The notes under the pieces were generated by a model, which saw nothing but the letters and a program-made list of their open reading frames with translations, had not been told where the DNA came from and did no database searches. A stretch of DNA of 32,493 bases. Source: Spirochaetales bacterium (GTDB lineage Bacteria > Spirochaetota > Spirochaetia > DSM-2461). The position numbers were made by a program, and so were the translations under genes. The stretch is from assembly GCA_028532905.1 (NCBI GenBank), contig JAQQAM010000142.1:1-32493 (forward strand), written 5' to 3'. Shown one piece after another: positions 3,586 to 20,554 of this stretch. Numbering within the stretch: position 1 is the stretch's first letter; the number at the start of each line of letters is the position of its first letter.

Positions 3586-3592
3586 GGAATAG

Positions 3593-3630
3593 CCCCGTCA
3601 GGGGAATATTCTGTTCTTGATTATAAGAAC
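3593..3630 (+). promoter_or_regulatory. Two inverted repeats in the symporter leader
   Basis: CCCC-GTCA-GGGG (3593-3604) forms a short strong hairpin. GTTCTT-GATTAT-AAGAAC (3613-3630) forms a second perfect 6-bp stem just before the AAGGAAAG ribosome site at about 3635-3642. They may be operators or mRNA structures; no known riboswitch is recognised. Confidence 0.35.
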
Positions 3631-3646
3631 ACATAAGGAAAGTTAA

Positions 3647-4936: not shown

Positions 4937-4960
4937 CAGACCCTGATTCTTTATTCTGAG

Positions 4961-4993
4961 AAAAATCCTGCTCTCCGGAGCGGGATTTTTTTT
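4961..4993 (+). terminator. Rho-independent terminator after the symporter
   Basis: AATCCTGCTC and GAGCGGGATT pair around a TCCG loop and are followed by a run of eight T. The stem begins about 25 bases past the symporter stop codon. Confidence 0.9.
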
Positions 4994-5089
4994 GCAGTGT
5001 TCAGAAGGGCAGAAGGGCTCTCTTGACTTTTTTCTATAACGGTATTGAGATTGTAGAAAAATAAAACCTTTTGGACTAAGGAATGCGCC

Positions 5090-5114
5090 GCTGAAGCAGT
5101 AAACCGGCTTTAGC
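5090..5114 (+). other. Leader hairpin before the MFS gene
   Basis: GCTGAAGC (5090-5097) pairs with GCTTTAGC (5107-5114), with one G-U pair, across a nine-base loop. It ends six bases before the AAGGA ribosome site of the next gene and could influence translation. The rest of 4994-5131 holds a TTGACT at 5023-5028 but no convincing -10 box at the right spacing. Confidence 0.35.
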
Positions 5115-5131
5115 AGGATTAAGGAATAACC

Positions 5132-6358
5132 ATGATTACAACTGTTATTTTATTCATTATTTATTTTGCCTTTATAAGCCTCGGACTTCCGGATTCAGTT
5201 CTGGGAGCCGCTCTTCCCGCCATCAGCCGGCAGTGGGGACTTCAACTCAGCGACGGTAGTCTTGCCTCCATGCTGATTGTAGGCAGCACTGTTGTTTCCA
5301 GCTTTATGAGCGGACATATTATTGAGAAGGTCGGAACCGGCCGCATTACGTTTCTCAGTTGTCTGTTGACCGCCGGAGCCCTTATGGGAATCTCTTTTGC
5401 CCCGGCCTTTCTCTGGCTTCTGATTCTGGCTGTACCTCTTGGCCTGGGAGGGGGAGCTGTTGATTCTGCCCTGAATAACTATGTGGCCGTTCATTATGAA
5501 TCAAGGCATATGAACTGGATCCATTCCTTTTGGGGTGTGGGAGCCACACTGGGGCCTGTGCTGATGTCTTTTTCTCTGAGTACATTCGGAAGTTGGCAGT
5601 CGGGATACCGCCTGATTTCGATCATACAATTTGTATTTACTCTGGTCCTTCTTTTTTCTCTGCCCCTATGGAAGAAGGCTGACAGGGAGAATCAGAAGAA
5701 GACGGAAGACCCGGCTGATGGACGGGATGCCCCTGAGATCTCTTCTGTGGAGAGTACTGACCGCAGGGAAAATGTGTTCCGCATCAAGGGTGTCTGGCTG
5801 GCATTCGTCTTTCTCATCCTCTACAGTGTGGTGGAAGGAGGCCTGGGGCTCTGGGGGAGCAGTTTTCTGGTACAGTCCAGAGGTTTCTCCATAGAAAGAG
5901 CCGCCTTCTGGATCTCCTTTTATTTTGGAGGAATCACTCTGGGACGTTTTCTCTCAGGTTTTATCTCTATGAAACTGAACAATACGCAGATGCTTCGGGG
6001 CGGCCTCCTTATCGCCCTTGGCGGACTGATTCTGATTGCCCTGCCTCTGCCTAAGATCCTTACTGTTGCGGCGATGATCCTCACAGGATTCGGACTGGCA
6101 CCTGTTTTTCCGGCCATGCTCCATGAAACGCCGAACCGCTTCGGCAGAAGTTCTTCTCAGATTCTTATCGGTTATCAGATGGGTTTTGCCTATCTGGGTT
6201 CCACACTGCTGAATCCCTTACTGGGAGTGATCCTGCAGCTGACAAATCCTGCACTCCTTCCCTGGATTCTGATGGTACTGTCTTTCTTGATGATTTTTAC
6301 ATCCGGTCTGCTTATTGCTGTTACAAACTCAGGAGATACTGTGGGTTATGAACATTGA
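5132..6358 (+). CDS. MFS permease, sugar-transporter type
   Basis: A 408-residue, 12-helix major facilitator with a charged central loop at about residues 185-215. The N-terminal half contains SLGLPDSVLGAALP and HSFWGVGATLGP, patterns typical of the fucose/sugar-H+ branch (FucP, TsgA and relatives). The second half contains GFGLAPVFPAMLHETPNRFG, also usual in that branch. The start ATG follows AAGGA at a good distance. It stands alone between a terminator and a gene with its own promoter, so its context does not suggest a substrate. The family is certain; the sugar is not determined. Confidence 0.87.
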   Translation: MITTVILFIIYFAFISLGLPDSVLGAALPAISRQWGLQLSDGSLASMLIVGSTVVSSFMSGHIIEKVGTGRITFLSCLLTAGALMGISFAPAFLWLLILAVPLGLGGGAVDSALNNYVAVHYESRHMNWIHSFWGVGATLGPVLMSFSLSTFGSWQSGYRLISIIQFVFTLVLLFSLPLWKKADRENQKKTEDPADGRDAPEISSVESTDRRENVFRIKGVWLAFVFLILYSVVEGGLGLWGSSFLVQSRGFSIERAAFWISFYFGGITLGRFLSGFISMKLNNTQMLRGGLLIALGGLILIALPLPKILTVAAMILTGFGLAPVFPAMLHETPNRFGRSSSQILIGYQMGFAYLGSTLLNPLLGVILQLTNPALLPWILMVLSFLMIFTSGLLIAVTNSGDTVGYEH

Positions 6359-7039: not shown

Positions 7040-7112
7040 TAGCAGGGGTAGGACTCGAACCTACGGCCTTCGGGTTATGAGCCCGACGAGCTGCCAACTG
7101 CTCCACCCTGCG
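7040..7112 (-). tRNA. Initiator tRNA-fMet (CAU), copy 1
   Basis: A 73-base tRNA with anticodon loop CTCATAA. Three hallmarks of bacterial initiators are present: an unpaired first position (C1 opposite U72), an A11:U24 pair in the D stem, and three G:C pairs at the base of the anticodon stem (TCGGG / CCCGA). The T arm is GTAGG TTCGAGT CCTAC. CCA is not encoded, so it must be added enzymatically. It has its own promoter and terminator. It is identical to the copy at 14938-15010. Confidence 0.97.
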
Positions 7113-7126
7113 TCGTGTGTTTTGAG

Positions 7127-7155
7127 AAGATAGACTCTTTCAGAATAATTGTCAA
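7127..7155 (-). promoter_or_regulatory. Promoter of tRNA-fMet copy 1
   Basis: On the minus strand a perfect TTGACA (7150-7155), 17 bases, TATCTT (7127-7132). The predicted start lies about 8 bases before the tRNA. The TTGACAATTAT block is shared with copy 2. The rest of 7156-7344 shows no gene. Confidence 0.85.
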
Positions 7156-7344
7156 TGCAATGGGAAATAATTATTGCTTTTATTGTATATAGGGATTGAA
7201 GCGTCTTCTTTCAATCCTGTTGCAGCGTATTATCAGCCCCCCGTCCGGAAAATATATTTTTACAATTCATGGAATCGTCTCTTTTCATAATCTGAGAATT
7301 AATAAATACTGCAATTGTTTAAGTATTATTGTTAAGGACTGTGT

Positions 7345-8019
7345 ATGTCAATTGAATCCCTGTTTGATGACTGTGCCCTGGATTATGACTCTGAAAGAAA
7401 AATTCTTGTTCCCTGTTTTGAAGATTTTTATGGAACTGCCCTGGAACAAATCCCTTTCGGGAAAGATGCATCATTAAAGGTGCTTGATCTTGGTGCAGGT
7501 ACCGGACTCTTTTCTTCCATGGTGTCCGCCCTGTATCCTCATGCAGAGTTGACTCTTTATGATATTTCACAGGGCATGCTTCATGAGGCCAGGAAAAGAT
7601 TCGAAAACAACAAAAAGTCCGTTCATTTTGTTGTGAAAGACTATTCAGAAAGTCCTATAGAAGGCAAATTTGATCTTATCATTTCTGCATTATCCATTCA
7701 TCATTTATCGGATATCGGAAAAAAACAGCTTTTTCAGAAAATATACAGGAACCTGAATGATAAAGGTGTATTTATTAATGCTGATCAGGCATTGGGTGAC
7801 AGTCCTGAGATTGAGCAGCAGTACAGATCGGTATGGGCCCGTCAGGTCAGGGACAAAGGCATAAGTGAAAAAGCATTTCAATCGGCACTGGAAAGAATGA
7901 AAGAAGATAAAATGTCCACATTGGCAGATCAGCTGGAGTGGATGAAACACGCAGGTTTCAGAAAAGTGAACTGCTGGTATAAAAATTACAGTTTTATTGT
8001 CTGTTCAGGAAGCAGATGA
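7345..8019 (+). CDS. Class I SAM-dependent methyltransferase
   Basis: A 224-residue cytoplasmic methyltransferase. Motif I is VLDLGAGTGLFSS (46-58), the acidic residue that binds the SAM ribose is Asp73 in LYDIS, and a post-motif segment reads FDLIISALSIHHLSD, the usual layout of UbiE-like enzymes. It acts on an unknown small molecule. The ATG follows AAGGA at 6 bases. It is transcribed alone, just inside the tRNA-bracketed segment, and is AT-rich like its neighbours. The family is certain; the substrate cannot be predicted. Confidence 0.88.
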   Translation: MSIESLFDDCALDYDSERKILVPCFEDFYGTALEQIPFGKDASLKVLDLGAGTGLFSSMVSALYPHAELTLYDISQGMLHEARKRFENNKKSVHFVVKDYSESPIEGKFDLIISALSIHHLSDIGKKQLFQKIYRNLNDKGVFINADQALGDSPEIEQQYRSVWARQVRDKGISEKAFQSALERMKEDKMSTLADQLEWMKHAGFRKVNCWYKNYSFIVCSGSR

Positions 8020-8032
8020 TAGGTCCTGAACG

Positions 8033-8061
8033 TTCCCCTGCGGGGCATTCCCCTGTATAAT
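8033..8061 (+). promoter_or_regulatory. Putative promoter of the two-component operon
   Basis: A perfect TATAAT lies at 8056-8061, 17 bases after a poor -35 (TTCCCC, 8033-8038), which suggests activator dependence. CCCC-TGC-GGGG (8035-8045) forms a small hairpin across the same stretch and could also end the preceding transcript. Confidence 0.4.
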
Positions 8062-8091
8062 AAATACTATTAAACAGGAGCCAGTACTGTC

Positions 8092-8754
8092 ATGAATGTA
8101 CTCATTGCCGATGATGAACCGAGAATGCGAAAACTCATTGCTGATTTTCTGAAGAAAGACGGCTACTCTACATTTGAAGCGGCAGACGGAGAGCAGGCTC
8201 TTGAGATTTTTTCAAGAGAGAGTATCCAACTTGTCATCCTTGATGTGATGATGCCCAAGTATGACGGCTGGTCGGTATGCAGGAAGATTAAAGAGGAATC
8301 TGATACTCCTGTATTTATGCTGACAGCACGCTGTGACAACTCGGATGAAATCTTCGGTTTTGAACTGGGAGCTGATGACTATATCAGAAAACCCTTCAGC
8401 CCCAGGGTTCTTGTGGCACGGGTCAATTCCCTGAGGAGAAAAATCGAAAAAAGGAATAGCCCTGCTGAATCCTTCGGGGGGCTTGAGTTGAACAGGCAGG
8501 GGCATTTCATCCTGATGGACTCCCGGAAGCTGGATCTGGCTCCCAAGGAATACGAACTTCTCCTTTATCTTATGGATCATCCCTCCCAGGCTCTCAGCAG
8601 GGAACAGATCCTGAATGCCGTATGGGATTTTGAATATTACAAAGGCATGCGGACTGTGGATACCCATATCAAAAAACTCAGGCAGAAACTGCAGGACTAT
8701 TCTGTTTATATTCAGACAGTGAGAAATTATGGCTACCGTTTCGAGGTCGAGTAA
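8092..8754 (+). CDS. OmpR-family response regulator
   Basis: A 220-residue DNA-binding response regulator. The receiver domain (1-120) has the acidic pocket Asp7-Asp8, the phospho-acceptor Asp51 in VILDVMMP, the switch threonine in MLTA and the lysine in RKPFS. The winged-helix output domain follows, with KEYELLLYLMDHPSQALSREQIL and a C-terminal TVDTHIKKLRQKL and RNYGYRF. An AGGAG lies 11 bases before the ATG. Its stop codon overlaps the start of the kinase gene (TAATG), so the two are translated together. It presumably controls nearby genes in response to the kinase. The convergent CotH operon is a candidate target, an inference from position only. Confidence 0.95.
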   Translation: MNVLIADDEPRMRKLIADFLKKDGYSTFEAADGEQALEIFSRESIQLVILDVMMPKYDGWSVCRKIKEESDTPVFMLTARCDNSDEIFGFELGADDYIRKPFSPRVLVARVNSLRRKIEKRNSPAESFGGLELNRQGHFILMDSRKLDLAPKEYELLLYLMDHPSQALSREQILNAVWDFEYYKGMRTVDTHIKKLRQKLQDYSVYIQTVRNYGYRFEVE

Positions 8755-10268
8755 TGTTCAGAAAATTATCCATCAGGACCAAGGTATTTTCCTGGATCAT
8801 TTCCCTTATACTGCTGTTTCTCCTTCTGTCTTTTCTGTTTACAGCCTTTCTGTTTAAACCCTACTATATTCTCAGGGATCAGAAGGAAATGCACGAAACC
8901 AGCGAGCTTCTTGCGTCTCTGGTTCCCTTGAATAATACAGAACTGGATACAGCCATAGAACGGGCTGAGAGAATGCAGGGGTATATGATTGAAATCATTT
9001 CCAGTGAGGGGGGTCTTCTGTACCCGGAGGAGGAGAGCTCCCCTCAGTTTCCGCCGGGATTGCATCCGGAACATCTGCCCCCTCCCGGACATCAGGGGAT
9101 CAACGTTCTGCCTCCTCCACCGGATTTCCGCTGGATCAGAGATGAATTAGACAAGCGGAGTGATTCCAATTTTATTTATAATGATGAATACGATGACAGA
9201 TTAAAGTCTCATATCCTCCATATTTATTATCTGATGGAAGACGGTGGTATGATTCATCTGAATCATCCTGTGGAGCCTATTGAGCAGAGTGTGATTATAT
9301 CGACTCAGTTCATTCTGTTTACAGGAGTCATTGATCTCATTGTCGGTATTCTGGCAGCCTTCCTGATTGCCCGGTTTTTTACAACTCCCGTTAAAGAGCT
9401 GACCTCCATTGCCAGAGATATGTCCAGACTGGATTTCAGCAGGAAATATGAAAGCAATAATGAGGATGAAATCGGAGATTTGGGACGTAGCCTGAACTCT
9501 CTCTCTGATCAGCTGCACAATTCATTAAACGAGCTGAACTCTCTTAATCATTCTCTACAGGATGAAATTGAGAGAAAAAGACGGATAGATGAGATGCGAA
9601 AGGGATTTATTGCCAATGTTTCTCATGAACTGCGGACTCCATTATCCCTGATTAAGGGCTATGCGGAAGGTCTGCAGGATAATATCAGTGAAGACAGGGA
9701 AAGCAGAGAGTATTACTGCAGTATTATAATGGATGAAACTCAGAAAATGGAAAAACATGTGGGGAGTCTTCTTGATCTGTCACAGCTTCAGTCTCAGCTC
9801 ATTCCCCTTGAAATCAAAGAGTTTGACATTGCCCAGCTCATAGTGGATACCGGCAAAAAATACAGAAAGAAATTTCAGGAAAACCATATTCAATTCAGCT
9901 TTCATCATGCCGGAACTCTTCTGGTCTCTGCTGACAGGGATAAAACAGAGCAGATTCTGGTCAACTATCTGGATAATGCCATCAACCATTGTGAGGGGGA
10001 ACGGAAGATTGCTGTAACCCTCGTCAGAACGGAATCGGATCTTCTTCGGGTAAAAGTCTCCAACCAGGGAGTTCAGATTCCGGAGGATTCCCTGGAAAAA
10101 ATATGGGACAGCTACTACAAAGTGGATAAAGCCCGAACCCGCGCATACGGGGGAACAGGTCTGGGCTTATCCATTGTAAAAGCCATTCAGGAGCAGTATG
10201 GTCAAAACTGCGGGGCTGAAAATTACAGTGAAGGTGTTATTTTCTGGTTTGATTTGACTCCGGTTTAA
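8754..10268 (+). CDS. Membrane sensor histidine kinase
   Basis: A 504-residue partner of the preceding regulator. It has helix 1 (about 12-35), an external loop (36-178), helix 2 (179-205), a HAMP linker (about 208-260), a phosphorylation helix with His291 in NVSHELRTP, and the ATPase domain. The N box is NYLDNAIN (404-411), the G1-like segment SNQGVQIP (436-443) and the G2 box GGTGLGL (466-472). The G1 wording N-x-G..IP recalls the VanS branch and need not mean loss of activity. The sensor loop contains a striking proline-rich stretch (about 97-123, including LPPPGH and LPPPP). The gene overlaps the regulator by one base and ends 4 bp from the convergent barrel gene. Confidence 0.95.
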   Translation: MFRKLSIRTKVFSWIISLILLFLLLSFLFTAFLFKPYYILRDQKEMHETSELLASLVPLNNTELDTAIERAERMQGYMIEIISSEGGLLYPEEESSPQFPPGLHPEHLPPPGHQGINVLPPPPDFRWIRDELDKRSDSNFIYNDEYDDRLKSHILHIYYLMEDGGMIHLNHPVEPIEQSVIISTQFILFTGVIDLIVGILAAFLIARFFTTPVKELTSIARDMSRLDFSRKYESNNEDEIGDLGRSLNSLSDQLHNSLNELNSLNHSLQDEIERKRRIDEMRKGFIANVSHELRTPLSLIKGYAEGLQDNISEDRESREYYCSIIMDETQKMEKHVGSLLDLSQLQSQLIPLEIKEFDIAQLIVDTGKKYRKKFQENHIQFSFHHAGTLLVSADRDKTEQILVNYLDNAINHCEGERKIAVTLVRTESDLLRVKVSNQGVQIPEDSLEKIWDSYYKVDKARTRAYGGTGLGLSIVKAIQEQYGQNCGAENYSEGVIFWFDLTPV

Positions 10269-10272
10269 TCCC

Positions 10273-11607
10273 CTAGAAAGAATACTTCAGCTGACAGTCT
10301 ATTTTCATGGAACTGTCTTCCAGTGACAGGGTCTCTCCTGTATTCAGTTCATAAACGGCATTAAAGGCATTGCCTGCCAGCAGATAGGACAGGGAGAGAT
10401 CAAACTCGAGACCGTCGCTTAATTGGAGGCTGTTGTGTATATCAGCTACCAATCCAATAAGACTGTAAAAATATCCATCACCTCTGAACAGATCTCCTGT
10501 GTTGGCGGCTCCCAGAATAAACTCTGTTTCAAGATCAAGGGGCATTATATGTTTAAATTCATAACGATATCCCAGTTCATAGATCAATAATCCGGGATCA
10601 TTATAGCTGATCACCCCATCGCTCAGGTTATTACTGACTATACTGAGACTCTCATCATCAAAGTATGCCTGACTGCTATAGGGACTTCCTCCGAAAAGCA
10701 GACCGAGTCCTGTATCCAGATTTCCCTCACCATCCAGGGTCTGAAACTGCCCCAGAGTGTCAAGTGAACCGTCTGAGCCGCTTGTCATATTGAATCGTGT
10801 GAAAATCGTATTGCGTTTGTTTGGTTCCAGCTTCAGTTTAATCCTAGTGAAATGAGCGGAGAGGGGGAGGGCGTATGTAACAACCTTTCCGAAGTTATAG
10901 GTATAGACTGCTTCAATTGAGAAGTCATTTATTTGTCCGGCAGTCTCGAAACCAAGCCAGCAGGAATTATATGTCAGTTCTTCGGTATCTCCATGATAGA
11001 ACATGGACCACAGGTCCAGATCCAGCAGAGTATCCTGATTCACTCCCAGATAAAAGAGATGATCCATATATTCAAGGGGCTGAGTACTTTCGTTATTCCC
11101 TTCAGTCAGGTTTGCTGCGGAATAGAATGTTTTGAGTTTCAAAAAGTCAAAATCATACTTGCCCTGCAGCCCCCACTCATCACTATCATAAACATAGTTT
11201 CCCGGTGTATTGATATCTATAATACCGGCTTTCATCTTGAAGGAGTTTTCCTGAAAACCAAGATACAGTTCTTTCATCTCAAGATCCAGAACATCTCCAA
11301 AGCTCAGATCCTCCTGGGTAAATTCCACATTTCCCCATTCCAGGAGGCTGTTCACATAAAAGGGGGAGTCCCATGTGACCTTCAGGCCAAGTCTGCCCCG
11401 TGCATCCCAGGCAATACTGCCGTCTGCTGTTTCATAATCCATATCATAGTTGTTCAGGTAGGCGGAACGGGTTCTTATTTCCCCCCCCATATCAAAGTCT
11501 ATGCCCCAGAGAGTAAAGTCTCCAAAGTTTTGATGGGCAGTCCCGTCATCAGCTTGAAGAACTGCTGCTGAACACAGGATCAGGAACACCAGAATCTTTT
11601 TTTTCAT
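10273..11607 (-). CDS. Outer-membrane beta-barrel protein
   Basis: A 444-residue protein with a cleavable signal peptide (MKKKILVFLILCSAAVLQA) and no later hydrophobic helix. The body alternates polar and aromatic residues in short strands and ends in KYSF, a terminal phenylalanine as expected of barrels inserted by BAM. It is likely a porin or surface channel; no specific family is recognised. It is the last gene of the CotH-VTC-DUF4956 operon, 3 bases after the DUF4956 gene, so it probably works at the cell surface with them. Its stop codon lies 4 bp from that of the convergent sensor kinase. Confidence 0.75.
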   Translation of the reverse strand: MKKKILVFLILCSAAVLQADDGTAHQNFGDFTLWGIDFDMGGEIRTRSAYLNNYDMDYETADGSIAWDARGRLGLKVTWDSPFYVNSLLEWGNVEFTQEDLSFGDVLDLEMKELYLGFQENSFKMKAGIIDINTPGNYVYDSDEWGLQGKYDFDFLKLKTFYSAANLTEGNNESTQPLEYMDHLFYLGVNQDTLLDLDLWSMFYHGDTEELTYNSCWLGFETAGQINDFSIEAVYTYNFGKVVTYALPLSAHFTRIKLKLEPNKRNTIFTRFNMTSGSDGSLDTLGQFQTLDGEGNLDTGLGLLFGGSPYSSQAYFDDESLSIVSNNLSDGVISYNDPGLLIYELGYRYEFKHIMPLDLETEFILGAANTGDLFRGDGYFYSLIGLVADIHNSLQLSDGLEFDLSLSYLLAGNAFNAVYELNTGETLSLEDSSMKIDCQLKYSF

Positions 11608-11610
11608 AAT

Positions 11611-12213
11611 CTACTCCATATACACAGTAATGCTGGCGGTATCTTTCAGATAATCGATCTTGTTTACTTTAATATCGCTGATTTTATATCCGGTTCTCTC
11701 TTCAAGGACTCTGATCAGTTCATCCCTTCTGTCTTCATGAATCAGCTCAATCTGTTCAAACAGAATCTTCCGGGAAGGCTTATAGTTTTTCAGCCACTTT
11801 CTCTCCATGATAAAAATCGCCATAACGATGATTATGTTGGCGAATACAATCTCAGCAAGACAGAGTTCCGATGTAATTGTTGAATTGATGGTCGCCATGA
11901 TGATGGATGTAAACATAAAGGTCATTTCCTTTATGGGGATGGCCTCTGTTCTGTATCTGAGTATAGAAAAAATGGCAAATAATCCAAAGGCAAAACCGGT
12001 TTCCAGAACTATCCTGCTCAGAAAACTGGCCACAAAAAATATGAGAATGTTAAATACTATAAAATTGAACAGGAATTGTGAATTGTTGTTCACTTTGTAA
12101 TAGGTTCCCATCAGGATTGTCATAAATATTATATTCATCAGAAAGCGCAGCAGGAGAATCTGTACTTCGGGATGATAACAGATAAGCTGTTGAATCAGAT
12201 CATTTTGGAGCAT
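11611..12213 (-). CDS. DUF4956 membrane protein
   Basis: A 200-residue protein with about four membrane helices in residues 18-140 and a soluble C-terminal domain (141-200). The segment GLFAIFSILRYRTEAIPIKEMTF is the hallmark of the DUF4956 family. No enzymatic role is known. These proteins are usually encoded next to VTC-type polyphosphate polymerase and CotH proteins, as here. In yeast the VTC polymerase domain is attached to membrane helices that carry the polymer across the membrane, so DUF4956 may supply the missing membrane part for the soluble VTC protein next to it. That role is an inference. The gene lies 12 bases after the VTC gene and 3 bases before the barrel gene. Confidence 0.85.
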   Translation of the reverse strand: MLQNDLIQQLICYHPEVQILLLRFLMNIIFMTILMGTYYKVNNNSQFLFNFIVFNILIFFVASFLSRIVLETGFAFGLFAIFSILRYRTEAIPIKEMTFMFTSIIMATINSTITSELCLAEIVFANIIIVMAIFIMERKWLKNYKPSRKILFEQIELIHEDRRDELIRVLEERTGYKISDIKVNKIDYLKDTASITVYME

Positions 12214-12225
12214 AATTATTCCTTT

Positions 12226-12993
12226 CTAATTAATTTCAAGTCTTTTCTGGAGAAAGAGAGATTTACGGATTTCTCTGTTTTTAATCTTCATATGATTCTT
12301 TTTTACATCACTGCAGAGATCGGATATACCAAGGCAGTATTTACTGAAGGACAGTCTCTTGATCTTCATCTGACTGAGGACCCCAGCCATAACTGATTTG
12401 TTAAGATCACCCTCATGTTTGATCTCGATGACTGCTAAATCGTTATATTCATTTTCTTTATCAAAACTTGCGCATTTAAGGTTCACATCAATTGTGATTC
12501 TTTCGGTTTCGGAATGATCCACAAGCATCAGCCTCCGGTACCGGATAATCAATTTCTGTTCCAGATTCTGCAGTTCCGGGGGTAGGGCCGTCTGGAGGAA
12601 TTCAGTCGTTTTCCTTACATTTTCCTCTGCATCAAGTTTTATTCGGTTTTTGATAACCCGTTTTTTATTATTTTTGAATTTGACTTCCAGATATTCGCTG
12701 CCTGTCAGCTCATAAGTCCTGTACCGTACTTTGTAACGGTTCAGTTTTCCGTTCTGATGAGCGCCGTAAAGTTTAAAATCCTGTGTATCAAAATAGACCG
12801 ACTTGTAGGGCATTATATTTTCACCGTTGATGTCAAGGATTTTGTAGTCTTCCACCACCCGCCCCAATATGACAGGCAGGAGCTCCCTATGGACTGTGTA
12901 TTTCACCTCTTTCCTGTTCATCAGCCTTACTGCATTCATGTTCTTCAGCAGAATGCTGGGGAACTCCTGGCAGATTCTATTCAAATTCTGCAT
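12226..12993 (-). CDS. VTC-domain protein, putative polyphosphate polymerase
   Basis: A 255-residue soluble protein of the VTC family, a branch of the triphosphate-tunnel fold. The tunnel residues expected in this fold are visible: RKEVKY (27-32), the basic strand RYKVRYR (86-92), EYLEVK (100-105), RYRR (151-154), EIK (190-192) and SFSKY (215-219). Eukaryotic relatives make polyphosphate from ATP; bacterial members are much less studied. There is no signal peptide or membrane helix, so it should act in the cytoplasm, probably at the membrane with DUF4956. It starts 4 bases after the CotH-like gene stop codon. It is strongly AT-rich (about 33-37% GC in two counted lines). Confidence 0.85.
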   Translation of the reverse strand: MQNLNRICQEFPSILLKNMNAVRLMNRKEVKYTVHRELLPVILGRVVEDYKILDINGENIMPYKSVYFDTQDFKLYGAHQNGKLNRYKVRYRTYELTGSEYLEVKFKNNKKRVIKNRIKLDAEENVRKTTEFLQTALPPELQNLEQKLIIRYRRLMLVDHSETERITIDVNLKCASFDKENEYNDLAVIEIKHEGDLNKSVMAGVLSQMKIKRLSFSKYCLGISDLCSDVKKNHMKIKNREIRKSLFLQKRLEIN

Positions 12994-12997
12994 GGAA

Positions 12998-14437
12998 TCA
13001 ATACCCGCTGAGGTAGCTTTCTGCCCTGCTGAGTCTGCCTGAAATCTGATTTTTCAGATCATCAATATCACTGTAGAAATCACTGCTGTCATATCCACTG
13101 TCATGCCAGGTATACCCATCTATTTCCGCAGTAACAGAATCTTCTATCAGAGCGGCATAGCAGTCTATCCATGAATCAAACTGAGTTTCATCAAACAGGC
13201 TGTCTGAATCTACAAAAAAGGAGGCAATGTATTTATCATAATCATCTCTGTAGTCTTCCAGATCCAGTATGTTTTCAAGAAGAGGCCATCCGTTGTAGGC
13301 CCCTCTGGATGAATCACTGCCGACATCAATACTCAGACAGAGGCTGCTGTCGGTGAATGATTCATTCAGGTCCCAGGGAAACCATGAAAAGCGGTCTCCA
13401 TCATTGGGATCTGCATAAAGATAGTAGTTATGGGCTTTTTCTCCATAAACATCCCAGTTCTGAATCGTATTGTTCACGGCCAGATATTTCAGAAATTTAT
13501 CAACATCAAATACAGATTCTATGGTGGACTGCCATGTGGAATCGCTTAATCCTGACGAGTCTATGGCCTCAATTAAATCTTTGATGTCACTCCAGTCCGC
13601 CTCATCTTCATTATTGGATTTACCATAGTAGTCAGTATTGAAATTATCTTCTGAGAGTGTCGAGTTATACTCATCATCCGGTTTATACAGATTACCACTG
13701 CTGCTGCCGAACTGTTCTTCCAGCATCTGATCAGAGGGATCCTCTATCATGGCATAAAGACCCCAGTAAACAGGTCCTTCTCCATCACCGCAGTCGATAT
13801 AGACCTCACAGAATGTTGCCCGGGCCGCTTCGACTCCGGCTTCCCTGTATGTTTCGGATGCCAGCACGTCTCGGATCATAGGATCATCGTTTTTCCCATT
13901 GCTGAATGTCATTTTCCTGAATCCCCAGAATCTCTGTCCTTCAATGACAGTCCAGACATCATCGTAATAGTCAAAATTCAGACGAAAGGGGAGTTTATGA
14001 ATACCGCTCTGCCAGGAGTCTCTCAAAGAGGAGTTTCCCTTATACCTCATGGCCACGTACCACCAGGTCTGATCATTAAACTCCACTGTGACAGGCACAT
14101 AAATCGGATCGTCATCGGCTATTGTCATCCTACCGGATGATCCAAAGGAGCCGTACAGATCTGTCATATCATCTTCCATCATCTCGTAATAGGCACTGTT
14201 AATAGTAATGTCCATACGATGCACAGTCGTCGTGTTGGAATCAAATAGTTGTTCATAATCCGGGTCGGCTTCTGAACTGTGACTGTCAAAAGTCCACCCT
14301 TCCCAGCTTTCAATGCTCTCCAGATAGGAGAGTTCTCCAAAGTCCTCAACTGTTTCGGAAAGAAAGTTTTCGCAGGAAACCAATTTCAGCAGTAAAGGCA
14401 ACAGTAATACTGTTCTGTATTTTTTAAGGTCAGTCAT
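12998..14437 (-). CDS. CotH-like lipoprotein (secreted protein kinase family)
   Basis: A 479-residue protein with an N-terminal hydrophobic segment and lipobox LVSC, with Cys22 as the lipidation site. The mature part shows the CotH pattern: RYKGNSS (131-137), GFRKMTFSNG, VYWGLYAMIED, NNTIQNWDVYG (322-332), NYYLY (337-341) and the metal-site segment WFPWDLNESF (352-361). CotH of Bacillus spores is an atypical kinase that phosphorylates secreted coat proteins. A lipid-anchored, acidic, serine- and aspartate-rich version suggests phosphorylation of envelope proteins, provided ATP or another donor is available outside the cytoplasm. It is the first gene of the four-gene operon. The ATG follows a weak GGGTG ribosome site. 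Confidence 0.88.
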   Translation of the reverse strand: MTDLKKYRTVLLLPLLLKLVSCENFLSETVEDFGELSYLESIESWEGWTFDSHSSEADPDYEQLFDSNTTTVHRMDITINSAYYEMMEDDMTDLYGSFGSSGRMTIADDDPIYVPVTVEFNDQTWWYVAMRYKGNSSLRDSWQSGIHKLPFRLNFDYYDDVWTVIEGQRFWGFRKMTFSNGKNDDPMIRDVLASETYREAGVEAARATFCEVYIDCGDGEGPVYWGLYAMIEDPSDQMLEEQFGSSSGNLYKPDDEYNSTLSEDNFNTDYYGKSNNEDEADWSDIKDLIEAIDSSGLSDSTWQSTIESVFDVDKFLKYLAVNNTIQNWDVYGEKAHNYYLYADPNDGDRFSWFPWDLNESFTDSSLCLSIDVGSDSSRGAYNGWPLLENILDLEDYRDDYDKYIASFFVDSDSLFDETQFDSWIDCYAALIEDSVTAEIDGYTWHDSGYDSSDFYSDIDDLKNQISGRLSRAESYLSGY

Positions 14438-14616
14438 CTATTTCACCCATCCCGGTTTAATGCCTTTGAGCCTAAAACTTCAGGATGACTTATAGATGTC
14501 TCTTTTGTGACCATTGTGAAAACTTTTTCAGGATGCAGGGGGCACAATCCATGTTGGATTTGTAGCGGATGGACATTCATACCGGTTCCGGCTGAATGTC
14601 CTCCTGTCAGATTGCG

Positions 14617-14747
14617 CTCCAGGTATTCGAAGCCGCATTTCAGGTTCGAGTCCTACCCGGTTTTGTACCGTAAATTCTACTGATTATAAATAAAAAAGAG
14701 TAAGGATAAATCCTTACTCTATCTTGATTTAGCAGGGGTAGGACTCG
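14617..14747. repeat. Direct repeat, left copy
   Basis: This 131-bp stretch recurs at 14825-14955 with a constant offset of 208 bp. The first 104 bases are identical, the next ten differ at several positions, and the last 17 (tRNA 3' end) are identical. Weaker similarity extends about 25 bases leftward. It contains the reversed T-arm AGGTTCGAGTCCTACCC, a terminator and the tRNA-fMet 3' end. Confidence 0.95.
14692..14720 (-). terminator. Orphan duplicate of the tRNA terminator
   Basis: An 11-bp stem AGAGTAAGGAT / ATCCTTACTCT with a T-run on the minus strand. It is identical to the terminator of tRNA-fMet copy 2 but lies behind a tRNA relic. Confidence 0.8.
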
Positions 14748-14782
14748 CTTTTCGGTCAACAGCATCCTGCTGCTGCCCTGCA
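14730..14782 (-). pseudogene. Relic of an initiator tRNA gene
   Basis: The last 18 bases of tRNA-fMet (plus-strand TAGCAGGGGTAGGACTCG) are intact here, but the central part is replaced. On the minus strand GCAGGG (complement of 14776-14781) can still pair with the acceptor 3' strand CCCTGC. An internal hairpin CAGCA-GGA-TGCTG lies between. The anticodon arm and most of the T and D arms are gone. It is either a decayed tRNA copy or an attachment-site scar carrying the tRNA 3' end. The gene-free stretch 14438-14937 holds this relic, the two repeat copies and no open reading frame. Confidence 0.6.
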
Positions 14783-14824
14783 ATCCCTCCTTCAATGCTA
14801 AAATGACCTCCTGTCATTTTGCTT

Positions 14825-14955
14825 CTCCAGGTATTCGAAGCCGCATTTCAGGTTCGAGTCCTACCCGGTTTTGTACCGTAAATTCTACTGATTATAAATA
14901 AAAAAGAGTAAGGATAAATCCTTACTCTGTATTGCTTTAGCAGGGGTAGGACTCG
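14825..14955. repeat. Direct repeat, right copy
   Basis: Second copy of the 131-bp unit. Here it runs into the functional tRNA-fMet gene. The reversed T-arm at 14850-14866 is an exact 17-bp inverted copy of the tRNA's own T-arm at 14944-14960, so the tRNA end, terminator and reversed arm together form a nested palindrome. Confidence 0.95.
14900..14928 (-). terminator. Terminator of tRNA-fMet copy 2
   Basis: An 11-bp stem AGAGTAAGGAT / ATCCTTACTCT followed on the minus strand by TTTTTT, about 10 bases past the tRNA 3' end. Confidence 0.88.
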
Positions 14956-15010
14956 AACCTACGGCCTTCGGGTTATGAGCCCGACGAGCTGCCAACTGCT
15001 CCACCCTGCG
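14938..15010 (-). tRNA. Initiator tRNA-fMet (CAU), copy 2
   Basis: Identical over all 73 bases to the copy at 7040-7112, with the same initiator marks (C1 opposite U72, A11:U24, three G:C pairs above the CAU loop) and no encoded CCA. Flanks differ apart from promoter elements and the terminator design. It marks a sharp change from AT-rich DNA on the left to GC-rich DNA on the right. Confidence 0.97.
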
Positions 15011-15024
15011 TCGTTTGCTCAATG

Positions 15025-15053
15025 AAGATATGCTGTATCCGGATAATTGTCAA
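15025..15053 (-). promoter_or_regulatory. Promoter of tRNA-fMet copy 2
   Basis: Minus strand: TTGACA (15048-15053), 17 bases, TATCTT (15025-15030). The hexamers and spacing equal those of copy 1, while most of the spacer differs, so both genes are probably expressed. Confidence 0.85.
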
Positions 15054-15114
15054 TAGAAAGTTTAAAAAAAGTTAAAATATCGTTTTTCTCACATCCGGTC
15101 ATGAATCCCGGTGG

Positions 15115-15816
15115 CTATAATCTGTAGGCATCCCTGTCTTCCTGCACAGCCTTGTCCATTTTACTGCGGGTATGCTTGTAGAGGATCAGGAGGAGGGGAA
15201 TGGTGAGCCAGGCAAGGGCGGTCCCGGTGAACAGGAAAAAGTCGTAGAGGCCGTGGTAGAAGACCGCCCAGATCAGACCGATCCATCTTATATCCTTCTG
15301 GGCGAATTTGGATTTTCCGATATAGTAGCCCATCAGTCCGGAGGCCAGTCCGTGAAGGGGGACCGATGTGACACCCCTCATAATAAGAAGGCTCCAGGGG
15401 TGGCTGGAGTTCATGCTGTACAGAATATTCTCCAGAAAGGCAAAACCCAGTCCAGCTGCCATGGTGTAAACAATCCCGTCATTGACCTCGTCAAACTCGG
15501 GCAGTTGATAGATAAACTTGTTGATAACCGCCATCTTGCAGCTCTCTTCCACCAGAGCCGCAATGATAAAAGCCCGGACAGCCGCTGCCGCCAGGGGATG
15601 GAGTCCTGAGGGAGTGAGGGATGTGAAGAGCATTTCTATGACCACCGCGGGGAGGGTGGAGGCAATGCCCCAGAGAAAGGCCTTTGTGACGGTACGCCTG
15701 GGTTCAGGACGGGGGTCTCTTCTGTAAAAGTATCCCAAAAGGATAAGCGCCGGGATCAGAGCCAGGAGAAAGTTGATGACCTGGGGCAGCAGCAGAAGAG
15801 AGAGGAGCAGGTACAC
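15115..15816 (-). CDS. PrsW-family intramembrane metalloprotease
   Basis: A 233-residue membrane protein with about seven helices and all motifs of the PrsW/CAAX-protease-like group: EESCK (90-94), FLEN (127-130), His155 in VPLHGLASG, and HGLYD (188-192). These glutamates and histidines are thought to hold the catalytic zinc. Bacillus PrsW cuts an anti-sigma factor; the target here is unknown. The start is GTG. Its ribosome site AAGGAG is formed by the last codons of hisC (CTG AAG GAG TAG), 7 bases away, so the genes are translationally coupled. Confidence 0.87.
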   Translation of the reverse strand: MYLLLSLLLLPQVINFLLALIPALILLGYFYRRDPRPEPRRTVTKAFLWGIASTLPAVVIEMLFTSLTPSGLHPLAAAAVRAFIIAALVEESCKMAVINKFIYQLPEFDEVNDGIVYTMAAGLGFAFLENILYSMNSSHPWSLLIMRGVTSVPLHGLASGLMGYYIGKSKFAQKDIRWIGLIWAVFYHGLYDFFLFTGTALAWLTIPLLLILYKHTRSKMDKAVQEDRDAYRL

Positions 15817-15820
15817 CCGG

Positions 15821-16876
15821 CTACTCCTTCAGGGTCTTCAGAAGTCGGATGAACTCCCTGTTCTGTTCTTCGGTACCGATGGTGTAGCGTATCCACTCAT
15901 TCATTCCGAAGGAGGCCAGAGGACGGATGGCCATCCCCTGATCCAGAAAGGAGTCAAAGACCTCTTTGCTGTCTCTGTCCACCTTTATACAGATAAAATT
16001 GGCTTCACTGGGGTAGAAAAAGAAGCCATTCTCTTCAAGGGCTTTGTAGAGATACTCCTTTCCGTCGCTGCAGAGTTTCAGAGTCTTTCTGATAAACTCA
16101 TCATCCTTCAGGGCTTCGGCTCCGGCTTTCTGGGCCAGCAGGTTGACATTGAATGCCTGTTTGGAGCGGAAGATCTCTTGTACCAGATCGGGGTGTCCCA
16201 TGGCGTAGCCCAGACGGAGTCCCGCCAGTCCGTATATTTTGGAGAAGGTTCTGGTCACCAGCAGATTGGGGTAATCCATCACCATATCCCTGCCGGAACA
16301 GAAATCCCTGTGACCGGCAAACTCGGCATAAGCTTCATCCAGCACAAGGATGACAGAGTCCGGCAGACGATCCATAAAGCTTTTGATTTCACTGCAGCTG
16401 AGGAAGGTTCCGGTGGGATTATTGGGATTGGCAATAAATACCAGACTGGTTTTTTCTGTAATTGCATTCAGAAGGCCATCCGGGTCAAAGCGTCCTTTCA
16501 CCAGAGGAACCTTCTTTACATGACCTCCAAAAAGGAGTCCCGAGAAATTATATTCTGAAAAAGTGGAGTCGGCGGTGACCACTTCCTGTCCTTCTTCCAG
16601 ATAGGTCCCTGCAATAAGAGCGAAAATTTCATCCGATCCGTTTCCGGCAATAAAACAGTCACTGCTGAGGCTGAAATGTTCGGCCAGAGCCTGAATCAGC
16701 AGGGACGATCTGCCGTCGGGGTAGCGGTGCAGATGATTCATTTCTCTGCTGATAGCGGCCAGGGCTCTGGGTGAGGGCCCCAGAGGGTTTTCATTGGACG
16801 AGAGTTTGACCGCTCCCGCTTTTGTTTTTCCGGCAACATAGGGGGTTACGGATTCAAGGGTTTTCCGGATTTTCAT
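15821..16876 (-). CDS. hisC: Histidinol-phosphate aminotransferase
   Basis: A 351-residue PLP enzyme of fold type I, catalysing the glutamate-dependent transamination step of histidine synthesis. Visible motifs are KLSSNENPLGPSP (24-36), NPNNPTGT (150-157), DEAYAEF (180-186) and the PLP lysine Lys213 in TFSKIYGLAGLRLG. The length is normal. The ATG has AAGGAG 5 bases upstream. No other histidine genes are nearby; such isolated enzymes may also act on aromatic amino acids. It is cotranscribed with prsW. Confidence 0.9.
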   Translation of the reverse strand: MKIRKTLESVTPYVAGKTKAGAVKLSSNENPLGPSPRALAAISREMNHLHRYPDGRSSLLIQALAEHFSLSSDCFIAGNGSDEIFALIAGTYLEEGQEVVTADSTFSEYNFSGLLFGGHVKKVPLVKGRFDPDGLLNAITEKTSLVFIANPNNPTGTFLSCSEIKSFMDRLPDSVILVLDEAYAEFAGHRDFCSGRDMVMDYPNLLVTRTFSKIYGLAGLRLGYAMGHPDLVQEIFRSKQAFNVNLLAQKAGAEALKDDEFIRKTLKLCSDGKEYLYKALEENGFFFYPSEANFICIKVDRDSKEVFDSFLDQGMAIRPLASFGMNEWIRYTIGTEEQNREFIRLLKTLKE

Positions 16877-16898
16877 GTATGCTCCTTCTGCAGCAGAT

Positions 16899-16948
16899 AA
16901 TGGCTGTTCAGCTTCCGACTCCTCCGGGGCTTTTTAGGTTCAGCCATT
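16899..16948. other. Inverted repeat between hybrid kinase and hisC
   Basis: AATGGCTG (16899-16906) and CAGCCATT (16941-16948) are perfect complements around a 34-base loop. It lies in the 85-bp gap between two same-strand genes. It may be an operator or a weak processing structure; no U-run follows it on the minus strand. Confidence 0.3.
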
Positions 16949-16961
16949 GATGAGAAGGAGT

Positions 16962-18362
16962 CTATTTTTCTCTACAATATTTAAGGAGCATCTCTTTTAG
17001 GTCAATAGGACTGACAGGTTTTCCCAGAAAATCGTTCATTCCCGCTTTTTTTATCTTCTTTTTATCAGCATCAAGAGCCAGGGCGGTCAGAGCTATTATG
17101 GGAGTCTGTTCATCCTGACCTTCTTCCATTTCACGAATTTCAGCAGCTGTTTCATACCCGTCTTTTCCGGGCATCTGAATGTCCATGAGAATCAGGTCGG
17201 GTTTGTGTTCCCTGTACCGTTTTATTCCCTGGAATCCGTCTTCCGCTGTAACAACTCTGTATCCAGCTTTCTCCATTGTTTTCACGGCCAGCAGCTGATT
17301 CACACGGTTGTCTTCCAGCAGGAGGATCAGTGGACCTTCGGAACTCAGATGGAAATCCTGTTTTTTTTCTTCCACCGTACCGGTTTCATCTTTCTCCTGT
17401 TCCGGGAGTATCAGGGGCAGAAAGAACCGGAATGTGCTGCCCCTGGAGGCTCTGCTGTTCACATCGATCTGTCCCCCCATACAGCTGGTCAGATAGGCGC
17501 AGATGGCCAGGCCCAGACCTGTACCACCGTATTTTCTTGTTGTAGAAGCATCGATCTGAGTAAATGACTTGAACAGAAGATGCTGTTTTTCTTCGGGTAT
17601 GCCGATTCCCGAATCTGAAATGGAGAAGTAGATTCTTGATTTGTCAGTATCCACATAACTGGAAAACTCAATATAGCCCTCGGGTGTGAATTTCAGGGCA
17701 TTGTTCAGCAGATTCTGAATGATCTGTCTGATCCTTACGGGGTCGCCCATAATAATTTCAGGGATATCATCTTCCGGATGGTAGCGGAACTCCAGCCCCT
17801 TGGATTCAGCCTGGGGAGTGAACAGTTTCACAATGCTGTCCAGAAACACAGGAAAGGGGATGGGGATGTTTTCCATGTTCAGGCTTCCCGATTCTATTTT
17901 TGAGTAGTCCAGTATGTCATTGATGACCCGCATAAGAGAATTGGCAGACAGTTTTATAATGCTCAGATATTCCTTGAGAGTCGGGCTGAGCTCTTCTTCA
18001 ATGGCCAGGTCCGTCATGCCGATTATACCGTTCTTGGGCGTTCTGATTTCATGGGTCATGGCTGCCAGAAATGTGGAGGCACCCCCTTCATTGACACTGT
18101 CTCCCTGAAGGGATTCGGCAGGATTGAGAAGCCACATGATCAGGCCGGTGGTCTTGTCTTTGGAAATCTCCTCGCTCCGGATTTCTCTCTGCCTGGGAGT
18201 CAGAAGGGCATGAATATGCCTTTTCAGGAGTTCTTTCTGGGTCATTCCCAGCAATTCTTCGGCTCGGCGGTTAACGCTCTCAATAAGACCTGACTTGTCT
18301 GTTATGATCAGGGCTTCACTCATGCCGTGATACAGTGACTGCATTTGCCCGGGGCTGATCAA
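16962..18362 (-). CDS. Hybrid histidine kinase (PAS-HisKA-HATPase-REC)
   Basis: A 466-residue soluble hybrid kinase. Order: PAS-like sensor (about 8-75), HisKA helix with His104 in MTHEIRTPKNG, ATPase domain with N box NLLNNALKF (217-225), G1 DSGIGIP (250-256) and G2 GGTGLGL (279-285), then a receiver (345-462) with Glu350-Asp351, Asp394 in ILMDIQMP and the lysine in LGKPVSP. Most relatives have methionine where Lys110 stands. No membrane helix is present. The start is TTG, overlapping the stop codon of the upstream permease gene (TTGA). GGAGGAG lies 5 bases before it, and no better start is available. Coupling to that permease suggests it receives a signal from it. Confidence 0.9.
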   Translation of the reverse strand: MISPGQMQSLYHGMSEALIITDKSGLIESVNRRAEELLGMTQKELLKRHIHALLTPRQREIRSEEISKDKTTGLIMWLLNPAESLQGDSVNEGGASTFLAAMTHEIRTPKNGIIGMTDLAIEEELSPTLKEYLSIIKLSANSLMRVINDILDYSKIESGSLNMENIPIPFPVFLDSIVKLFTPQAESKGLEFRYHPEDDIPEIIMGDPVRIRQIIQNLLNNALKFTPEGYIEFSSYVDTDKSRIYFSISDSGIGIPEEKQHLLFKSFTQIDASTTRKYGGTGLGLAICAYLTSCMGGQIDVNSRASRGSTFRFFLPLILPEQEKDETGTVEEKKQDFHLSSEGPLILLLEDNRVNQLLAVKTMEKAGYRVVTAEDGFQGIKRYREHKPDLILMDIQMPGKDGYETAAEIREMEEGQDEQTPIIALTALALDADKKKIKKAGMNDFLGKPVSPIDLKEMLLKYCREK

Positions 18363-20554
18363 AGAGCTCCTCCTTCGGATAAAATCTGATAGGTATAGTA
18401 CAATACTGCGATAGAATTACTGGAATTTCCAGCTGAAGCATCAAAATTGAGTATCGAGCGGATCAGGGGAGCCGCCCCCTTGCCGGGGTTTTGTACTTTC
18501 CTTAAGATTTCCTGACACCATATCCATAAGGCCCTGAAATCCTGTTCCGAATAGCTGGCGTATAACCGGGGCTGAGCCTGGAAGAACAGATCCATTTCCC
18601 TGGTTTCATCCAGAAGGATATGAATTCCCTCTCCCTGTTCCATATTATTCATCTGATAAATCCATCCCAGAGGGGGGCTCATATTCCTCTGACGGCTGAA
18701 CAGGGTATACAGGCTCTGCTCATAGGTCTCTCCCTGGGCGCTTATCTCTTTAGAAAAAAGACTCTCCATCCAGTCTCCGTCGGGGGCCATATTGTGCAGG
18801 GCAATGAGATAGTTCAGATCCCGTGTGATATTCCCCCGTCTGCCGTTGATGTATCTGTCATATATTTTTCTCATGCTATCGGTATGTCCGATCCGCCCCA
18901 GGGATTTAGCGGCATTGGACGCGGTCAGACTGTCCGGATCATCCAGAAGCTTGATCAGTGCTTTCTCTACCCGGTTGGACGGGTAGGCTCCCAGAGCGAA
19001 GATCGCTTCCTGTCTGTACAGGGAATGGATTTCTTCCGCTTCTCTTATAAGGTCGGGTATTAAATCGGGTCTTTTTCTCTCAAAAAGGGTTTTCATTATG
19101 TCCGATTTTTCTGAGCTGATGGGATTGTGGAACATCTGCCTGATCTCTTCATTGGCAAGGGATGATCCCGTATAGGCCAGTGAGAGAATCAGAGTTTTCC
19201 GTTTATGGGTGTTGTTGCCGCTGCTCAGTCTGCTGATGTCACGGAAGGTCCTCATATGTTCGATTGAAAAAAGCATGGTCCATGTCTTTTTCATGGTGGC
19301 GCTTCCCTTTTCATAAAAGCCGGCGGCCACAATGGTGATAAACACACAGATCAGAAGAGCCAGGGCAAAGGTCAGCCCGTACACATTCAACAGAGGGAGA
19401 TTCACTCCGGCTGTTCCCAGGTCTGCCAGCCCTCCGGCGATGAATCCCAGAAGAAGAGCCAGAATGGATGTGACCACAATATCCATGGAAGTAAAGGAGA
19501 CAGACCCTTCATCGGGAATGGACTGAATAAAGAGGCGGGCCGTCAACAGAGAGAGAATGTTCTGAATAAACACGGTGAGAAAACCAAGGATATAGAAAAA
19601 CTCCGGACTCCTTTCAGGGGATATGGTCATCCATGTGAAAAATAGGAGTCCCGCCGCTATTCCGGAAGGGAGAATAAAGGGTCTGCTCCCCATTCTGTCG
19701 GCAAAAGGACGGATCATCAGGGCCGCCCCCACCGACGAGACCGTAATGATAACGGTATACATAAAAACCTGTGCCGCCGTGAATCCGGCAAACTGCCTCA
19801 GAAACGGAACCGTCATGGCGGTGAGTATTTCAATGCAGATTGCGGACCAGCGCAGGAGGAGGATGGTTTTCTCTCTTTTCTTACTGAAGGCTTCTTTTAG
19901 AATTTTCCCTATATGCTGACCGGGCTCATAATCCACAACCTCCCTGTTGGGCATTTTCTTCAGATTGAGACTGGCAAAAGTATTGGCCAGGACACCGATC
20001 ATCTGCAGGGTCAGGATTCCGGCCAGTTCCGAGAGAAAGTGGAGAGAGGTGAGAATATAACTGAAAAAGCGTGAAACCAGAGCAATCGAATTAAACCGGG
20101 TGGATGCTGTCATCACCACTTCTCCCCGGGTCCGGCTGGTGGAAATCATTTTCTGTATGGACTGCTGAATGGCGACACCGATGGTTCTTGTTATACAGAA
20201 GAGAGTATAGGTGATAAGAATTATCCAGACAGCTGACGGTCCTTTCAGAAAGGGGAGAATCAGATAGCCGAGGCATACCAGTCCTCTGAGCATCCAGGCG
20301 ATATAACCCACCTGTTTACTGGATCTCCCTCTGAACAGACGGGGGTAGAATATAAGCAGTCCCCCCGTAATGTAGGCGGCTGCAGAGATATATCCCAGCT
20401 GCAGGTTGGTTGCCCCATACAGAATAGCCAGCAGATAAACCGTTGTGTTTCCGAGAAAACTGAAACTGACGCCGTTAAAAGAGACAAAACGGAAATAATA
20501 TTTCCTGGCAGTCTCACGTTCTTTCTGTGAAAGGTACTTGGTTTTTTTAATCAT
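18359..20554 (-). CDS. MFS-like permease with C-terminal HEAT-like domain
   Basis: A 731-residue fusion. Residues 20-415 form about 12 membrane helices in the major facilitator arrangement, including the loop RPFADRMGSRP. Residues 420-731 are soluble. They contain HEAT-like helical repeats around 450-575 (YRQEAIFALGAYPSNRVEKA, then SNAAKSLGRIGHTDS) and a further helical part. Such repeats are protein-binding scaffolds. The stop codon overlaps the start of the hybrid kinase gene. This arrangement suggests a transport-linked sensor in which the permease or its scaffold talks to the kinase; that is an inference. The substrate is unknown. Confidence 0.85.
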   Translation of the reverse strand: MIKKTKYLSQKERETARKYYFRFVSFNGVSFSFLGNTTVYLLAILYGATNLQLGYISAAAYITGGLLIFYPRLFRGRSSKQVGYIAWMLRGLVCLGYLILPFLKGPSAVWIILITYTLFCITRTIGVAIQQSIQKMISTSRTRGEVVMTASTRFNSIALVSRFFSYILTSLHFLSELAGILTLQMIGVLANTFASLNLKKMPNREVVDYEPGQHIGKILKEAFSKKREKTILLLRWSAICIEILTAMTVPFLRQFAGFTAAQVFMYTVIITVSSVGAALMIRPFADRMGSRPFILPSGIAAGLLFFTWMTISPERSPEFFYILGFLTVFIQNILSLLTARLFIQSIPDEGSVSFTSMDIVVTSILALLLGFIAGGLADLGTAGVNLPLLNVYGLTFALALLICVFITIVAAGFYEKGSATMKKTWTMLFSIEHMRTFRDISRLSSGNNTHKRKTLILSLAYTGSSLANEEIRQMFHNPISSEKSDIMKTLFERKRPDLIPDLIREAEEIHSLYRQEAIFALGAYPSNRVEKALIKLLDDPDSLTASNAAKSLGRIGHTDSMRKIYDRYINGRRGNITRDLNYLIALHNMAPDGDWMESLFSKEISAQGETYEQSLYTLFSRQRNMSPPLGWIYQMNNMEQGEGIHILLDETREMDLFFQAQPRLYASYSEQDFRALWIWCQEILRKVQNPGKGAAPLIRSILNFDASAGNSSNSIAVLYYTYQILSEGGAL

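Follow-up and report, generated by a model that had tools for sequence, protein, structure and literature searches.

A CotH-VTC-DUF4956 operon with a predicted outer-membrane barrel in a Spirochaetales bacterium: a diderm variant, outside Pel loci, of a known three-gene core

Genes for a CotH-family kinase, a VTC-type polyphosphate polymerase and a DUF4956 membrane protein form a three-gene core known from Gram-positive Pel loci, where it is an accessory set (PMC7112168). In Streptococcus intermedius, deletion of DUF4956 led to more Pel, deletion of CotH led to less, and both reduced aggregation; the C-terminal domain of DUF4956 was called an ACT domain, and the gene arrangement was reported only at Pel loci (PMC12345266). 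The same core, followed by a fourth gene, lies in a stretch of 32,493 nucleotides from a Spirochaetales bacterium (assembly GCA_028532905.1, contig JAQQAM010000142.1, positions 1 to 32,493), here called the window, of which a preliminary description had been made. The window operon is a diderm, Pel-independent variant of the known core, with an added barrel and regulator. It shares with SIR_1592–SIR_1594 of S. intermedius (DUF4956, VTC-type polymerase and CotH) the clustering of three families, two of which (DUF4956 and CotH) influence a surface polymer there, whereas the window set stands outside a pel locus, is accompanied by a barrel of 444 amino acids and a convergent two-component system, and lacks both DUF4832 and a glycoside hydrolase.

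Other described systems resemble parts of the set. The eukaryotic VTC complex couples polyphosphate synthesis to membrane transit, and stores phosphate in yeast vacuoles (PMC10657179). Common to the yeast complex (Vtc1–Vtc4) and the window are a Vtc4-like catalytic tunnel, the same basic residues and a constant membrane partner; however, the window polymerase carries no fused membrane domain, and DUF4956 has no detectable relation to a solved VTC membrane domain. The Bacillus spore-coat kinase CotH belongs to the same family, aligns over the catalytic region with both Asp motifs kept, and acts outside living cytoplasm, although the window CotH is a predicted lipoprotein of a diderm, is very acidic, and is encoded in an operon without a CotB or CotG substrate. 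NELoc-2 of Clostridium perfringens contains VTC, a ‘tubulin’ protein and CotH (PMC2879425); the likeness lies in VTC and CotH genes sharing one cluster with a glycosyltransferase, and the ‘tubulin/FtsZ’ neighbours of its VTC genes are probably DUF4956. In contrast to the window, NELoc-2 is from a monoderm, has a duplicated VTC pair and has no barrel.

The four open reading frames (ORFs) of the window operon (Table 1) were found on one strand, in the order CotH-VTC-DUF4956-barrel and exactly where they had first been placed, with gaps of 4 (CotH/VTC), 12 (VTC/DUF4956) and 3 nucleotides (DUF4956/barrel). The four-gene operon is real and was correctly read, and the families proposed for CotH, VTC and DUF4956 were clear in Pfam (CotH, 187 bits against a curated cut-off of 23.8 for PF08757; VTC, 99.7 bits against 23 for PF09359). 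No NCBIfam model matched any of the four proteins. Our tentative interpretation, weighed below against its rivals, is that such sets form a trans-envelope machine that would make phosphate groups or polyphosphate and deliver them to the surface and so modify matrix or surface polymers.

Co-occurrence of the families was examined in two surveys. Among 247 genomes of the Spirochaetota, DUF4956 and CotH were each present in 38, and VTC was present in 19 (over cut-off in 18). The VTC genes over cut-off numbered 19; for 17 of them a DUF4956 gene lay on the same strand no more than 1 kb away, and for 18 one lay within 5 kb, the sole exception coming from a genome that is 76% complete; CotH lay within 5 kb of 13/19. 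Fisher tests gave p ~2e-15 for the association of VTC and DUF4956 and ~1e-21 for that of DUF4956 and CotH, figures inflated by kinship among the genomes. The second survey scanned named genomes. An alignment spanning all VTC proteins proved too diverse to scan contigs with, and a narrower one was used, so the scan favours relatives of the window VTC subtype. It returned 80 loci. Most are from Bacteroidota; the others include Calditrichota, Marinimicrobia and a single Methanoperedens archaeon. DUF4956 was the gene next to VTC in 76/80 (median overlap 4 nucleotides); within five genes of VTC, CotH occurred in 31/80 and Cthe_2159 in 5/80. It is clear that VTC and DUF4956 behave as one unit and are nearly inseparable. 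Comparison of neighbourhoods, which had been proposed as a check, thus shows the families together in the phylum and beyond it, and recurrence of the set across several bacterial phyla argues that it is a real envelope system. A chance neighbourhood is ruled out by the two surveys.

A third gene family was found in 61/80 of the wider loci; its gene shares the strand in every case and in most cases immediately follows DUF4956. Its representative matched DUF2490 (E 1e-22), and a signal-like start (43/52) and a terminal F (30/52) were common among its members, features of a protein that is probably an outer-membrane barrel. As DUF2490 follows DUF4956 in most Bacteroidota loci, diderms seem to add an outer-membrane candidate to the pair, and the diderm unit would comprise the VTC-DUF4956 pair plus a probable outer-membrane barrel, partnered by CotH or by some other secreted protein. 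Among the CotH partners of the commonest long type, at least one carries a Por_Secre_tail surface-sorting domain. Distance correlations between VTC, DUF4956 and the third gene (r 0.66–0.72) include shared species history and are not counted as evidence of contact. Directly before VTC, on the same strand, small families of ~142 and ~169 amino acids were seen in 30/80 and 21/80 loci (for example, L062 9071–9484 and L092 9417–9986, both Bacteroidota); these could be substrates.

The window barrel itself was sought in 61 relatives and found in three besides its own genome (L035, L036 and L037), one from the same genus, one from another genus of the family and one from a different family of the class. 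Each of them has the complete CotH-VTC-DUF4956-barrel order with the barrel last, and two have the convergent two-component system. This recurrence indicates that the barrel, and probably the two-component system, belongs to the system, and with DUF2490 as third gene in Bacteroidota it upholds the view of the barrel as a true component. The 444-residue protein matched no Pfam family over cut-off (best weak match Porin_4, E 0.03). Its model is beta-rich with a pLDDT of 42, and Foldseek groups it, no further than the level of fold class, with AlgE and outer-membrane porins; on this basis, and from a signal-like start and a terminal F, the protein is predicted to be an outer-membrane beta-barrel. 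Assignment to a known porin or exporter family was rejected: there was no profile match to solved structures, and the model is too poor to be read beyond fold class.

Two further sets were found in the same genome, on contig C198. In set B, VTC-DUF4956-barrel-CotH is followed by the dTDP-rhamnose genes rmlA, rmlC, rmlD and rmlB; in set C, which lacks VTC, the order is barrel-CotH-DUF4956 and the genes upstream encode a flippase, glycosyltransferases and a glycerophosphotransferase. A barrel candidate accompanies the set each time, as in the window arrangement (set A, or type A), with no mutual homology among the three detected by phmmer. An OprO/OprP-type phosphate porin was considered for the set B barrel from a motif read by eye, and was unsupported by Pfam or PDB search. 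The occurrence of CotH and DUF4956 without VTC in set C and several other genomes, together with a relative of the set C barrel adjoining CotH genes in a genome of another family (L025), raises the possibility that CotH, DUF4956 and the barrel form the core of a surface-modification unit to which VTC is an optional addition, recycling or buffering phosphate. Bacteroidota show the reverse, VTC-DUF4956-barrel being constant and CotH variable, and VTC practically never occurs without DUF4956, which makes an optional VTC rather unlikely. In L011, another genome of the phylum, the place of CotH is taken by a carbohydrate-binding protein, Cthe_2159. L010 (13252–16143) encodes a 963-residue protein, YidC-like (60KD_IMP) with a sulfatase-type domain, that adjoins a glycerophosphotransferase gene in a surface-polysaccharide locus.

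The VTC protein has no membrane segment and is soluble. A profile built from 14 VTC relatives matched yeast Vtc4 structures (E 4e-20), and the tunnel residues, whose conservation the preliminary description had made a test, are conserved: of 94 aligned sequences, 92 to 94 have the equivalents of Vtc4 K200, R264, R266, K281, K294, R361, R373, E426 and K458. Tunnel phosphatases share the centre residues and have an acidic patch where basic residues stand otherwise (PMC4641920). By our own spacing argument, VTC positions 27, 29 and 192 would correspond to the published Glu-2, Glu-4 and Glu-171; two of these are basic (R27 in 88/94, K192 in 94/94), and residue 29 is acidic (D/E), as in tunnel phosphatases. 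With two positions basic and one acidic, the protein leans to polymerase rather than tunnel phosphatase, and polymerase activity appears likely. It might nevertheless be a tunnel enzyme of other activity, such as a triphosphatase, in an operon unrelated to polyphosphate, a reading consistent with acidic residue 29 and with relatives of the same centre that are phosphatases (PMC4641920); basic residues in place of the acidic patch, and Vtc4 as the best structural relatives, render it highly improbable. A polymerase could also serve storage, with VTC making cytoplasmic polyphosphate reserves and its neighbours acting as transport or sensing parts, much as yeast VTC stores phosphate in vacuoles (PMC10657179), and a two-component system does adjoin the operon. 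Yet PPK1 is already present, a surface kinase is needless for storage, and the operon has no phosphate transporter or phosphatase gene, so storage is very unlikely. The genome, with PPK1 and two VTC genes, gave no Ppx-GppA family match.

CotH begins with a lipobox (LVSC) whose cysteine, Cys22, is invariant in seven aligned CotH proteins, and has a net charge of -67. It matched the solved spore coat CotH structure 5jd9 (E 3e-7), with its NWD and PWD motifs aligned to the NFD and PWD motifs of that structure. D329 and D356 are likewise invariant in the seven proteins and, from their spacing, would be the counterparts of catalytic D228 of Bacillus subtilis CotH and its partner. The phosphate donor of Bacillus CotH in vitro is ATP, and where this ATP would come from in spores has been called an unanswered question (PMC7821199).

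The AlphaFold2 model of DUF4956 (pLDDT 88) comprises five helices in residues 14–141 and a beta-alpha-beta-beta domain in residues 147–199 that is predicted to be ferredoxin-like (ACT-type); at the positions of R86 and R88, each of the 74 aligned sequences has K or R. DUF4956 is likely to be the partner of VTC. A Vtc1-like or other solved channel was considered for it and set aside, there being no convincing fold match and the matches covering mainly the C-terminal domain. The domain bears on a possible but doubtful alternative, a regulatory accessory of exopolysaccharide or matrix, in which ACT-like DUF4956 would sense a metabolite and tune synthesis with VTC, CotH would use ATP on matrix proteins and no polyphosphate would cross the membrane. 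Besides the ferredoxin-like domain, Gram-positive loci that link the set to Pel (PMC7112168) speak for it, as do the S. intermedius deletions, Pel being raised by loss of DUF4956, lowered by loss of CotH and without reported change on loss of VTC (PMC12345266). Against this, no PelG homologue was found among 1451 neighbourhood ORFs, so that the loci are not at Pel, and a barrel that tracks the unit is left unexplained.

The same negative result contradicts the published statement that the arrangement occurs only at Pel loci (PMC12345266). A strict Pel accessory set was rejected for the window: the core is contiguous as in Pel loci, but is not contiguous with pelDEADAFG and has no pel genes nearby. 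The genome's own pelG lies on another contig (C29), in a pel-like locus (L131) where PelG is over the Pfam cut-off and a PelF-like glycosyltransferase adjoins it (by eye); that contig carries no CotH, VTC or DUF4956. In L035, from another genus, a diguanylate cyclase with a 7TMR-DISM sensor is encoded at 13302–15137, near the type-A operon, and bifidobacterial Pel loci include a cyclase/phosphodiesterase in the set that corresponds to this neighbourhood.

As a trans-envelope machine, the set would work with its proteins in their presumed locations as follows. VTC, docked on DUF4956, would polymerise phosphate from ATP in the cytoplasm; DUF4956, as inner-membrane subunit, would pass the product to the outside or present it there, a role that falls to the membrane part in the eukaryotic complex; the lipoprotein CotH, outside the cytoplasm, would phosphorylate a surface protein or glycan; the barrel would be CotH's outer-membrane outlet or anchor; and the two-component system would switch the set on. 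This interpretation is favoured by the near inseparability of VTC and DUF4956 in both surveys, the Vtc4-like tunnel and the barrel candidate of diderms, and further by the surface-sorting tail on at least one CotH partner, the position of sets B and C by surface-polysaccharide genes and the altered Pel amount and aggregation of the S. intermedius DUF4956 and CotH deletions. Its best-supported part is VTC and DUF4956 as a pair linked to surface polymers. Polyphosphate transport through DUF4956 is guessed by analogy; use of polyphosphate by CotH is a guess too, as are what CotH uses and modifies and the role of the barrel. A full bacterial counterpart of the VTC complex, in which polyphosphate made by VTC-DUF4956 would cross the inner membrane and replace ATP for CotH, with the barrel carrying the product out, is decidedly unlikely.

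Several observations weigh against the trans-envelope interpretation. Many VTC-DUF4956-barrel loci have no CotH nearby, CotH and DUF4956 occur without VTC in several genomes, and in the genome of the window itself CotH-DUF4956-barrel occurs without VTC (set C); as the presence of each varies, neither CotH nor VTC is an obligate partner of the other. No Pel or aggregation phenotype was reported for deletion of VTC in S. intermedius (PMC12345266), Bacillus CotH works with ATP in vitro (PMC7821199), and the presence of PPK1 means that VTC is not the only polyphosphate route in the genome. The fold search with the DUF4956 model gave no clear solved relative of the membrane domain, and the literature search found no paper assaying a bacterial VTC of this type. 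The preliminary interpretation is partly supported as a whole. It had called the pathway undescribed, which does not apply to the gene set, the core being known from Gram-positive Pel loci (PMC7112168), and does apply to the mechanism, none being described there.

The operon and its neighbouring regulators lie on a segment of ~7.8 kb (~7113 to 14937) with 40–45% G+C, compared with 47–55% in most of the remaining window. The two identical tRNA-Met genes at its borders are accompanied by a repeat of ~200 bp (85% similar). In congener G250, window flanks 142–6358 and 15115–20554 adjoin across a tandem tRNA-Met array and the operon is absent; in three further congeners, tRNA-Met copies are present at the junction with no trace of the operon there. 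G249 has the operon and regulators elsewhere (~2.05 Mb versus 0.14 Mb). Low G+C, tRNA-Met borders, an empty site in a congener and another position in G249 together suggest that regulators and operon most likely move horizontally as a unit. No integrase was found among the ORFs of the segment. Next to the right tRNA-Met, at 14595–14955, is a 131-bp direct repeat with remnants of tRNA 3′ ends, a pattern expected if insertion or recombination had taken place repeatedly at the array. A class I methyltransferase gene on the island (7345–8019) was not seen beside the operon in related loci.

The two-component system had been described as converging on the operon, and the stop of the histidine kinase does lie 4 nucleotides from that of the barrel; histidine-kinase and response-regulator homologues occupy the same place in L036 and L037. 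Each of the four type-A operons has, upstream of CotH, a 23-nucleotide candidate element, TCANAANNNNCACANNNNNNACA, with 12 positions kept in register. This element occurs once in the window, compared with none in 100 shuffles, and twice in the 5-Mb genome, a chance level that is optimistic because the element was spotted by viewing the alignment. We infer that the two-component system regulates the operon. A search of seven loci for an upstream RNA regulator (for example, a cyclic di-GMP riboswitch) detected the two tRNAs and nothing else.

Table 1. Coordinates of the operon, its neighbouring regulators and the island borders within the window.
Feature	Coordinates	Strand	Details
CotH-family kinase, predicted lipoprotein	12998..14437	-	479 aa; Pfam CotH, E 7.3e-55
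VTC polyphosphate-polymerase domain, soluble	12226..12993	-	255 aa; Pfam VTC, E 2.4e-28
DUF4956 membrane protein	11611..12213	-	200 aa; Pfam, E 1.3e-43
Predicted outer-membrane beta-barrel	10273..11607	-	444 aa; signal-like start, terminal F, beta-rich low-confidence model
Sensor histidine kinase, convergent with operon	8754..10268	+	HisKA, HATPase_c, HAMP
OmpR-family response regulator	8092..8754	+	Response_reg and Trans_reg_C
Candidate regulator-binding element TCACAATGGTCACAAAAGAGACA	14497..14519	-	Upstream of CotH, directly before -10-like TATAAG
tRNA-Met, left island edge	7040..7112	-	ARAGORN; sequence identical to copy at 14938
tRNA-Met, right island edge	14938..15010	-	ARAGORN; congener empty site between tandem tRNA-Met copies

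CotH-family kinases act outside the cytoplasm, and the pairing of one with a phosphate polymerase, a membrane protein and a barrel in a conserved operon makes the question of the ATP source (PMC7821199) testable. As VTC-DUF4956 pairs of the window subtype recur in Spirochaetota, Bacteroidota, Calditrichota, Marinimicrobia and Methanoperedens, a mechanism for the pair would explain many unannotated loci. If polyphosphate were the donor for CotH, phosphorylation outside the cytoplasm would have a new route of energy coupling.

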